Assembly: GCF_003234965.1 (NCBI RefSeq)
Contig: NZ_QKVK01000002.1
Span: 186,001-250,000 of the forward strand
Length of the DNA: 64,000 nt
Origin: Aestuariivirga litoralis
Lineage (GTDB): Bacteria; Pseudomonadota; Alphaproteobacteria; Rhizobiales; Aestuariivirgaceae
Direction of reading: 5' to 3'
Both the position numbers and the translations under genes were made by a program. How positions within the stretch are numbered: the first letter of the stretch is position 1; each line of letters opens with the position of its first letter. The notes beneath the pieces were generated by a model, which saw only the letters and a program-made list of their open reading frames with translations, ran no database searches and was not told where the DNA came from. Positions 20,899 through 22,693 of the stretch are shown here, one piece after another.

Positions 20899-20930
20899 TT
20901 GCAGAAGGCTATTAGCGGTGCTAATAGCCT
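20899..20930 (+). promoter_or_regulatory. Perfect palindrome overlapping a candidate promoter of the HTH-RibBA gene
   Basis: Two 11 bp arms (AGGCTATTAGC at 20906-20916 and GCTAATAGCCT at 20920-20930) form a perfect inverted repeat with a 3 base centre. A third half-site, GCTAATAGC, occurs at 20955-20963 inside the gene. A candidate -35 (TTGCAG, 20899-20904) and -10 (TAATAG, 20922-20927) lie 17 bases apart, with the -10 inside the right arm, placing transcription start close to the ATG at 20935. An autoregulatory operator for the HTH domain is the natural reading (inference). Confidence 0.6.
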
Positions 20931-20934
20931 CTCC

Positions 20935-22212
20935 ATGAAACTTTCCGAGTGGCTCGCTAATAGCGGCACGTCGCAATCCGAACTGGCACGCCGGCTGGGG
21001 GTCACCCAGGGCCGGGTGTCGCAGCTCGTGGCGGGGGCACTCCCCTCCCTCGATCTCGCCAACAAGATTGCCGCCGCCACGGGCAACAAGGTGCGCGCAA
21101 CCGATTTTGGAGACCAGACCATGCCGAACCAGCAGAAGCTCGACCTCGTCGAGGATGCGATCAAGGCCATTGCCGCCGGCGAAATGGTGGTCGTCGTCGA
21201 CGATGACGACCGCGAGAACGAGGGCGACCTGATCGGGGCGGCCGCCAAGATCACGCCGGAGCAGATGGCCTTCATGGTGCGCCACACCTCCGGCATCGTC
21301 TGCACGCCGATCACCGCGGAAGACGCCAAGCGCCTGAAGCTCGACCCCATGGTGGCGCTCAACGATGCGCCGATGGGCACCGCCTTCACCGTCACCATCG
21401 ACTACAAGGAAGGCCTGACCACCGGCATTTCCGCCAAGGAGCGCGCCGCCACCTGCCATGCACTCGCCAACCGCAACGTGGTGGCCGATGACTTCGTGCG
21501 CCCCGGCCACATCTTCCCGCTGGTTGCCAAGTCCGGCGGCGTGCTGATGCGCTCGGGCCACACGGAAGCGGCCGTCGACCTCGTGAAGCTTGCGGGCCTG
21601 CACCCCGCCGGCGTGATCTGCGAACTGGTGAACGACGACGGCTCGGTGAAGCGGGGCCCGCAGGTCATGGCCTTCGCGCGCGAGCACGGATTCAAGATCA
21701 TCTCGGTCGCCGACCTCATCGCCTATCGCCAGCGCCGCGAGCGCCTGGTCGAGCAGACCGCGCAGTTCGACGTCGAGACCGCCATCGGCAAGGCCCGGGG
21801 CTATTCCTTCGTCACCCCCTTCGACCAGGTGGAACAGCTGGCGCTGGTGTTTGGCGACGTGTCGTCCGGCAAGGCTGTCCCGGTGCGGCTGCACCGCGAG
21901 AACGTGCTGGAGGACGTGTTCGGCACCCGCACCACGCTGAGCAAGGTGTTCGAGGTGTTCAAGCGTGAGGGTGCGGGCATCCTCGTCTACCTGCAGGAGG
22001 GTGCTGCCGGTGTTCCGGCAGGCCAGCTCGCCCAGGAGAAGACGGGAAGTGCCGCCCAGCGCCAGCAGTCCTGGCGGGACGTGGGGCTCGGCGCCCAGAT
22101 CCTGCGCGACCTCAATGTCAGCTCGATCCGGCTCGTCTCGTCCTCGAACCGCCATTACGTCGGCCTCTCCGGCTTCGGCATCGAGATCGCCGAGACGATC
22201 AAGCTCGACTAA
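20935..22212 (+). CDS. ribB: HTH domain fused to 3,4-dihydroxy-2-butanone 4-phosphate synthase with degenerate GTP cyclohydrolase II domain
   Basis: A 425-residue protein with three parts. Residues 1-60 are a Cro/CI-like helix-turn-helix (SQSELARRLGVTQGRVSQLV at 13-32). Residues 63-270 are the RibB domain making the four-carbon riboflavin precursor, with DDDDRENEGD, TGISAKERAAT and RPGHIFPL. The C-terminal 140 residues align with GTP cyclohydrolase II but lack all three zinc cysteines (HRENVLEDVFGTRTTL), so that activity is probably lost. The ATG at 20935 has no ribosome site and may be leaderless; a second ATG at 21121 has GGAGA seven bases ahead and would give an HTH-free 363-residue enzyme. 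Confidence 0.9.
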   Translation: MKLSEWLANSGTSQSELARRLGVTQGRVSQLVAGALPSLDLANKIAAATGNKVRATDFGDQTMPNQQKLDLVEDAIKAIAAGEMVVVVDDDDRENEGDLIGAAAKITPEQMAFMVRHTSGIVCTPITAEDAKRLKLDPMVALNDAPMGTAFTVTIDYKEGLTTGISAKERAATCHALANRNVVADDFVRPGHIFPLVAKSGGVLMRSGHTEAAVDLVKLAGLHPAGVICELVNDDGSVKRGPQVMAFAREHGFKIISVADLIAYRQRRERLVEQTAQFDVETAIGKARGYSFVTPFDQVEQLALVFGDVSSGKAVPVRLHRENVLEDVFGTRTTLSKVFEVFKREGAGILVYLQEGAAGVPAGQLAQEKTGSAAQRQQSWRDVGLGAQILRDLNVSSIRLVSSSNRHYVGLSGFGIEIAETIKLD

Positions 22213-22240: not shown

Positions 22241-22693
22241 ATGCAGACGGCGCGGCCAAAGCACGACAGGGACGACCAGCCGATGATCATCGGCTGGCGC
22301 GAGAAGGTGAGCCTGCCCCGGCTGGGGGTGGGCACCTTTTCGGCCAAGATCGACACGGGCGCCTATTCCGCGGCACTCCACGCCACCGACATCGAGCGCG
22401 ACGATTTCCACGTGAAGTTCGTGCTGCCACTGCCCAGGCGCAAGCACCACTGCCGCCTGCCGCTCAAGGGCATGCGTCGCGTCAAGAGTTCCAACGGCCA
22501 GATCGAGACCCGCGCCGTGGTCGAGACCGACGTGAAGATCGGCAAGATCACGCTCAGGATCGACGTGACGCTGACCGACCGCACCGACATGGGCGTCGCC
22601 ATGCTGCTGGGCCGCAGCAGTCTCGGCCACGACTTTCTCGTCCATCCGACCAAGACCAACATCCTCTCGCCCAAGAAACGCAAGACGCCATGA
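22241..22693 (+). CDS. rimB: RimB-like retropepsin-type aspartic protease
   Basis: A 150-residue protein of the family once called ATP-dependent zinc protease, now seen as retropepsin-like. The catalytic DTGA motif is in [14 protein letters not shown], and [16 protein letters not shown] is the conserved end. Members are encoded beside RimK ligases; in pseudomonads the trio is named rimABK. An alternative start is the ATG at 22283, which gives MIIGWREKV. The stop overlaps rimK by ATGA, so the two are coupled. It may trim or regulate the glutamate tails made by RimK (inference from the family). Confidence 0.85.

Follow-up and report, generated by a model that had tools for sequence, protein, structure and literature searches.

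Control of riboflavin supply in bacteria is mostly described as the work of the FMN riboswitch (RF00050), which is RNA-based. The lambda repressor, a DNA-binding protein, recognises a 17-bp operator, and the first residue of its helix 3 is a glutamine that contacts an outer adenine; at its own promoter, lambda CI combines activation with repression, depending on concentration. Metabolic enzymes that also regulate genes have been described as well. PutA is a proline catabolic enzyme doubling as a regulator, BirA is biotin ligase and repressor in one chain (PMC5343134), and the archaeal RbkR, an N-terminal helix-turn-helix (HTH) domain joined to riboflavin kinase, is listed as both gene regulator and enzyme (PMC8305020). 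Here we analyzed a gene in a 64-kb stretch of DNA (the whole stretch is called the window) and conclude, by comparison of sequences, that its HTH-RibBX product is very probably both a DHBP synthase and a DNA-binding repressor of its own leaderless promoter, acting through a 7+3+7 operator. As in BirA and PutA, a metabolic enzyme and a DNA-binding regulator would thus share one chain, which we deduce for HTH-RibBX from sequence comparison only; the enzymes and the pathways are different. As in RbkR, so far as the source describes it, a riboflavin-pathway enzyme carries an N-terminal HTH, but RbkR is archaeal and a riboflavin kinase, whereas HTH-RibBX has RibB instead. With enzyme-regulators already known, including RbkR of the archaeal riboflavin pathway, we filed the RibB-based one as a new variant. 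No HTH-RibB or HTH-RibBX fusion was named in those portions of the literature that a full-text search returned, and two papers dealing with the control or transport of riboflavin (PMC12542839, PMC4418817) do not contain the term helix-turn-helix.

The fusion gene (positions 20935 to 22212, forward strand) encodes HTH, RibB and RibX parts in 425 amino acids. The first-pass annotation had read an HTH ahead of the riboflavin enzyme RibB, and profile searches bore out the order of the domains. The N-terminal Cro/CI-type HTH domain (20935 to 21121, forward strand), found by Pfam and by structure models, matched HTH_3 (PF01381) over residues 1 to about 60 with 34.8 bits against the Pfam cut-off of 23. 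It is followed by a DHBP synthase domain (21151 to 21726, forward strand) with the intact RibB motifs DDRENEGDL and GHTEA, which matched DHBP_synthase (PF00926) with 283.1 bits over residues 73-264 and, in NCBIfam, TIGR00506 with 243.8 bits against a cut-off of 177.45. The third part (21754 to 22200, forward strand) matched the GTP-cyclohydrolase-II domain (PF00925; 104.3 bits, residues 274-422) but is degenerate, since alignment with 4i14 (M. tuberculosis RibBA) and 6mnz showed that the CDC zinc motif is lost. Among the relatives compared, RE(N/G)EGD and GHTEA were present in all 100 fused proteins, and the CDC motif in 0 of these 100 vs 6 of 55 unfused ones. A GTP-cyclohydrolase-II domain without CDC makes the protein a RibBX; the RibB domain had thus been named rightly, but judged by its sequence the protein is not plain RibB but RibBX with an extra HTH.

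The same combination of RibB and a degenerate GTP-cyclohydrolase-II domain occurs in RibBX of Shewanella oneidensis, Aeromonas salmonicida and Acinetobacter baumannii (6mnz). In a structure search with the window protein 6mnz was row 3, and its alignment began at its residue 3, indicating that 6mnz is without such an HTH. The Aeromonas ribBX lies in a rib operon, whereas no riboflavin gene was recognised by eye among the ORFs neighbouring the window gene. No kinase family was found among the Pfam and NCBIfam matches of the window protein, unlike RbkR. A protein query that included the X domain had a single matching place in the window's genome, and no second place, possibly a separate RibA, was found with it.

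Structure modelling gave the HTH five helices (residues 3-10, 14-21, 25-32, 39-48 and 55-58), with a mean pLDDT of 89.6 for the domain modelled alone and 76.6 for the full protein. In a Foldseek search with the HTH, the top rows were mostly Cro/C1-type HTH proteins, at a weak level (best E 5e-3), and its best sequence matches among solved structures, 8co2 and 8c7k, are titled YdaS of a prophage. A five-helix HTH and a 17-bp 7+3+7 operator are what the window protein has in common with lambda CI, Cro and YdaS; the difference is that it is fused to a housekeeping enzyme and dimerises presumably through RibB. If translation started at Met63 (21121-21123), which lies at the beginning of the RibB part, about where the matches of unfused relatives begin, the HTH would be an untranslated relic. 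We consider this hardly credible, because the amino acid sequence of the HTH is conserved (32-98% identity to 25 relatives) and the reading frame runs without a stop from the HTH past the RibB motifs in all 100 fused loci.

A perfect 11+3+11 palindrome, AGGCTATTAGC-GGT-GCTAATAGCCT, occupies positions 20906 to 20930 and ends four bases before the ATG at 20935, as had been noted in the first pass. We propose it as an operator whose 17-bp core (7+3+7) is TATTAGC-GGT-GCTAATA at 20910 to 20926. Two perfect palindromes with arms of at least 11 and a gap of at most 6 were found in the window, this site being one of them. The other, CCAGCCGATGATCATCGGCTGG, lies at 22276-22297 inside the start of the next ORF. 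The motif GCTAWTAGC occurs 3 times in the window, always at ribB (mean of 0.08 in shuffles; 3 reached in 0 of 100), and the genome as a whole (4.23 Mb) has 4 copies, of which 3 lie within 57 bp at ribB (9 for the reversed-pattern control). Its doubled form, GCTAWTAGC-nnn-GCTAWTAGC, had one genomic place at up to 3 mismatches, at ribB (reversed control 3), and the core of the palindrome, TATTAGC-nnn-GCTAATA, has no second copy in the genome. By the test at up to 3 mismatches, ribB is the only target in the window's genome. A larger regulon in that genome, also considered, was rejected on the same single place.

A third half-site, GCTAATAGC, lies in codons 8-10 of the gene (20956 to 20964, forward strand). 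In a comparison of 17 rows, comprising 15 of the window's genus together with L197 and L154, it was kept in 14, as xxT-AAT followed by AGC (13 rows) or ACC (1), and was absent in L149 and L150 of the window's genus and in L154. These near relatives keep it at synonymous positions while residue 8 varies (Ala, Ile, Val, Thr) and the flanking codons vary too. The window gene uses AAC 10 times vs AAT twice, and AGC for 3 of its 24 serines. The third half-site that had been pointed out earlier is therefore retained, as a feature seen only in near relatives.

We then compared the upstream regions of 100 fused and 55 unfused ribB loci, a non-redundant set without near-identical upstream regions (>85% identity) and without loci having less than 60 bp upstream. 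Within 110 bp upstream of the gene, 49 of the 100 fused loci had a perfect 7+3+7 palindrome, with 0.8 expected from dinucleotide shuffles, as did 2 of the 55 unfused loci, with 0.7 expected; six of seven pairs were matched in 38 fused (14.2 expected) and 12 unfused loci (9.4 expected). A conserved-core 7+3+7 site was found in 95/100 fused vs 4/55 unfused loci, counts that are of related sequences with few independent changes behind them, and none of the 4 unfused loci closely matches the TATTAGC or the TTTCAGT form of the site. The site test was failed by L056, L070, L232, L156 and L022. At L232 the wrong start had been picked, and inspection by eye of the corrected start shows a site; the palindrome of L156 is deviant, and no clear site was seen at L022. 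On the tree set with a stricter threshold, the operator was present in 47 of 52 fused vs 0 of 40 unfused rows, being absent also from four unfused members of the window's own family (L012, L289, L290, L291). In six independent pairs across well-supported branches, the operator went with the fusion in 4.8 pairs on average, against 0.0 (sign test, median p 0.0625, six pairs being too few for p <0.05). Most of the window's family has TATTAGC-nnn-GCTAATA about 25 bp before the ATG, and the other families share the 7+3+7 frame but fill it with TTTCAGT-nnn-ACTGAAA, placed at about -42 or -69. The expectation of the first-pass annotation that GCTATTAGC-type palindromes would accompany such fusions thus holds for the co-occurrence, while the exact motif is confined to the window's family.

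The letters of the site change with the HTH. The recognition helix of the window protein (residues 25-32, QGRVSQLV; 21007 to 21030, forward strand) contains three residues, 25, 27 and 30, that co-vary with operator bases 2, 7 and 4, respectively. Gln25/Arg27/Gln30 goes with TATTAGC, and Pro/(Ala,Ser,Thr)/Ala with TTTCAGT. The left arms of 95 loci were tallied, and the site test had used these bases only through their pairing. When residue 25 is Gln, base 2 is A in 25 of 28 loci, and when it is not Gln, base 2 is T in 67 of 67; when residue 30 is Ala, base 4 is C in 55 of 55, and when it is Gln, base 4 is not C in 35 of 37; when residue 27 is Arg, base 7 is C in 22 of 31, and when it is another residue, base 7 is T in 60 of 64. 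Helices of an intermediate type are paired with sites of intermediate sequence: Ala25/Arg27/Gln30 with CTTTAGC (L008, L160, L162), Ala25/Ala27/Gln30 with ATTTAGT (L048, L055), and Pro25/Ala27/Gln30 with TTTTAGT or TTTAAGT (L165, L166). Two exceptions, L068 and L069, keep TTTCAGT despite Gln30, and on the tree the recognition-residue changes amount to 1 to 3 independent pairs each. The predicted register of helix on operator agrees with that of the lambda repressor. Because the DNA site changes in step with the HTH, it is very probable that the gene is controlled by its own product.

It is conceivable that the palindrome serves a separate, unfused regulator and that the fused HTH has another DNA target or none, given that direct binding by the fused HTH is so far deduced from comparison. 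We consider this very unlikely, because the site varies together with the recognition helix, unfused ribB genes on the tree set are without the site, including the four in the window's family, and most sites in fused genomes are at ribB itself. For the last point, we searched 37 fused genomes outside the window's family for TTTCAGTNNNACTGAAA with at most 1 mismatch and obtained 42 sites (reversed control 5), of which 33 are at ribB (in 32 genomes), 3 at FMN riboswitches that precede RibN-like genes, and 6 elsewhere. At the same tolerance, a TTTCAGT-type site at ribB was absent in 5 of the 37 (G065, G170, G133, G039, G076). In 37 unfused genomes, TTTCAGTNNNACTGAAA had 13 sites in 11 genomes, none of them perfect (reversed control 23), and comparison of coordinates placed none of them near ribB. 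No riboflavin link was recognised by eye among the ORFs neighbouring the six extra sites of the fused genomes. One perfect TTTCAGT-nnn-ACTGAAA (L124; G296:C8:567212-567228) lies within an ORF near an ORF that, by eye, resembles a phage head protease. When 14 genomes of the window's family were searched for TATTAGCNNNGCTAATA with at most 2 mismatches, the matches were in most genomes no commoner than the reversed control, which was mostly the higher of the two, and unfused members of the family also had 2-mismatch matches; matches with 0-1 mismatches occurred in the family only at ribB of fused genomes.

The position of the operator bears on what binding would do. In the window, a candidate -10 (TAATAG, 20922 to 20927, forward strand) lies inside the right arm of the palindrome, an overlap already seen in the first pass, and a candidate -35 (TTGCAG, 20899 to 20904, forward strand) is 17 bp before it, so that the transcript would start near the ATG and be leaderless. 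An automatic promoter scan favours an overlapping pair, TTTGCA/GCTAAT. We counted promoter features from start codons chosen by script, in 97 of the 100 fused loci (L056, L070 and L232 excluded). TTG starting at -37 to -34 was present in 80/97 fused vs 3/55 unfused loci, and the best sigma-70-like promoter had its -10 between -14 and -11, counted from the start codon, in 73/97 fused vs 5/55 unfused loci and in 4/97 shuffled fused regions. Shine-Dalgarno-like cores, which rest on the same script-chosen starts, were found in 5/97 fused vs 25/55 unfused loci. A -10 at -14 to -11 implies a transcript starting at or near the ATG, and the fused ribB promoters look leaderless by these counts. The operator covers the -10 in the window's family and the -35 in family f18 and, as proximal copies, elsewhere, and an operator over the -10 or -35 of a leaderless promoter points to repression.

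A perfect inverted repeat right before an ORF could also fold as RNA, and the repeat might work as a hairpin, a leader attenuator or terminator, rather than on DNA. With transcription starting at or near the ATG, as the promoter geometry indicates, the repeat would be untranscribed; many loci have it at about -69, upstream of the -35 candidate, and the window has no Rfam match. We therefore give this explanation next to no weight. RNA-level control was likewise rejected as a candidate, because the window has no Rfam match, the genome no RF00050, and the palindrome is untranscribed by the predicted geometry.

A more serious alternative is that the fused HTH is an activator, or a dual regulator dependent on concentration, in which a strong distal site at about -69 would serve activation and a weaker proximal one over the -35 repression. 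Of 95 loci, 41 have a best site that starts at -71 to -67, and in our own count 17 of those 41 show a second, weaker one at -42 to -39, where the TTG of the -35 sits; activation would also be compatible with a strongest site at about -69, as many loci have. The strong site itself, however, lies over the -10 or -35 in the window's family and in f18, which fits repression. We consider the activator or dual reading rather unlikely, and because it overlaps with autorepression, the odds of the two are not exclusive.

The first-pass annotation had seen no riboswitch upstream of the gene, and the searches agreed: no Rfam match at gathering scores was found in the 64-kb window, and no FMN riboswitch (RF00050) in the window's genome; the same search was positive in 7 of 14 control genomes. 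The FMN riboswitch is present in relatives within the window's genus, where it was found in 0/15 fused vs 11/14 other genomes (Fisher p 1.05e-5, with kinship ignored). Five of the 14 other genomes have an unfused RibB, and each of these five has a riboswitch; the remaining nine have no RibB match, and six of them have a riboswitch. Those riboswitch loci of the genus that were read by eye lie before a ribD-like (L137, L138) or a RibN-like gene (L139, L140). The latter two (G223 and G063, respectively) have no RibB match and a riboswitch before the RibN-like gene, which suggests riboflavin auxotrophy. Elsewhere in the family, two fused genomes have a riboswitch (G291, G317), and in the order a riboswitch was found in 10 of the at least 57 fused genomes listed and in 99 of the other 240. 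Because fusion and riboswitch coexist in the order, exclusion is not general.

In all 10 of the fused genomes with a riboswitch, the riboswitch is on another contig than ribB. Five of the ten have it before a RibN-like gene, and all five carry the operator there, two of them in addition to the three sites counted above; their family, f38, is probably Stappiaceae. The operator in the leader is at -72 or -71 in three of them (L121, L122, L132), at -27 in L131 and at -14 in L123, where it overlaps the beginning of the riboswitch match. Tests on two of the five RibN-like proteins identified them as EamA transporters; the remaining genes were named by eye. In the five other fused genomes (L130, L133, L134, L135, L136), the riboswitch precedes a gene that is ribH-like by eye, and no operator was found at it, suggesting that the two controls may govern separate genes within the pathway.

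A protein search of 297 genomes of the order (Hyphomicrobiales) found the HTH-RibBX fusion in at least 57. Named loci put the window's family near Aestuariivirga, Taklimakanibacter and Thermopetrobacter, and the same fusion occurs in Roseibium, Stappia, Labrenzia and Hongsoonwoonella. On a tree of the RibBX domain with 94 rows, kept from 140 with the motif after rows more than 90% identical and 15 motif-less rows had been dropped, the fused state is scattered with 9 changes of label, which fit both an ancestral fusion with losses and transfer. A profile of the HTH matched in 38 of 385 genomes of the class; among 30 profile loci tested, RibB follows the HTH in five, namely G000, G039 and G076 of the order and two genomes of family f90. 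At one of the profile loci (L176; G347:C6:31834-33550), four small HTH matches stand in tandem over about 1.7 kb. In L056 (G026) and L070 (G231), RibBX is fused to different HTHs, apparently by separate fusions, and both were left out of the pair tests while being counted among the 100 fused loci. L056 has a perfect palindrome of its own, GTTGCCA-AAA-TGGCAAC, at -36.

Taken together, the co-occurrence of operator and fusion, the overlap of operator and promoter and the linkage of site to helix support the earlier reading of an enzyme that represses its own gene; from these we infer direct binding, repression as its direction and the geometry of the dimer. Catalytic and DNA-binding domains were found in one chain, and a predicted operator at the promoter of the same gene. 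RibB is a homodimer. In the mechanism we propose, the RibB homodimer would bring two Cro/CI-type HTHs to the 17-bp 7+3+7 operator, and the bound HTHs would block the leaderless promoter at the -10 in the window's family or at the -35 in other families, so that the enzyme would set its own synthesis, and hence the supply of riboflavin, through its amount and perhaps through its ligand state. As a guess only, the effector may be a flavin or nucleotide that the degenerate X domain senses, or else the occupancy of RibB by its substrate. Going further, HTH-RibBX may be a flavin-sensing protein counterpart of the FMN riboswitch, with the X domain as sensor, paired unequal operators, a lambda-like homeostasis that includes import in some lineages, and lineages switching between it and the riboswitch; we offer this wider reading tentatively, as possible rather than probable.

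If autorepression by HTH-RibBX is true, riboflavin supply in these bacteria would have a widespread transcription-factor route, in which a phage-type repressor domain was fused onto an enzyme. The fused loci offer a natural series in which to study the joint evolution of operator and recognition helix, and the system makes the role of the X domain of RibBX testable; were the flavin-sensing reading true, the purpose of the X domain in RibBX proteins would be explained. In family f38, the finding also proposes a regulator for the gene of a RibN-like importer.
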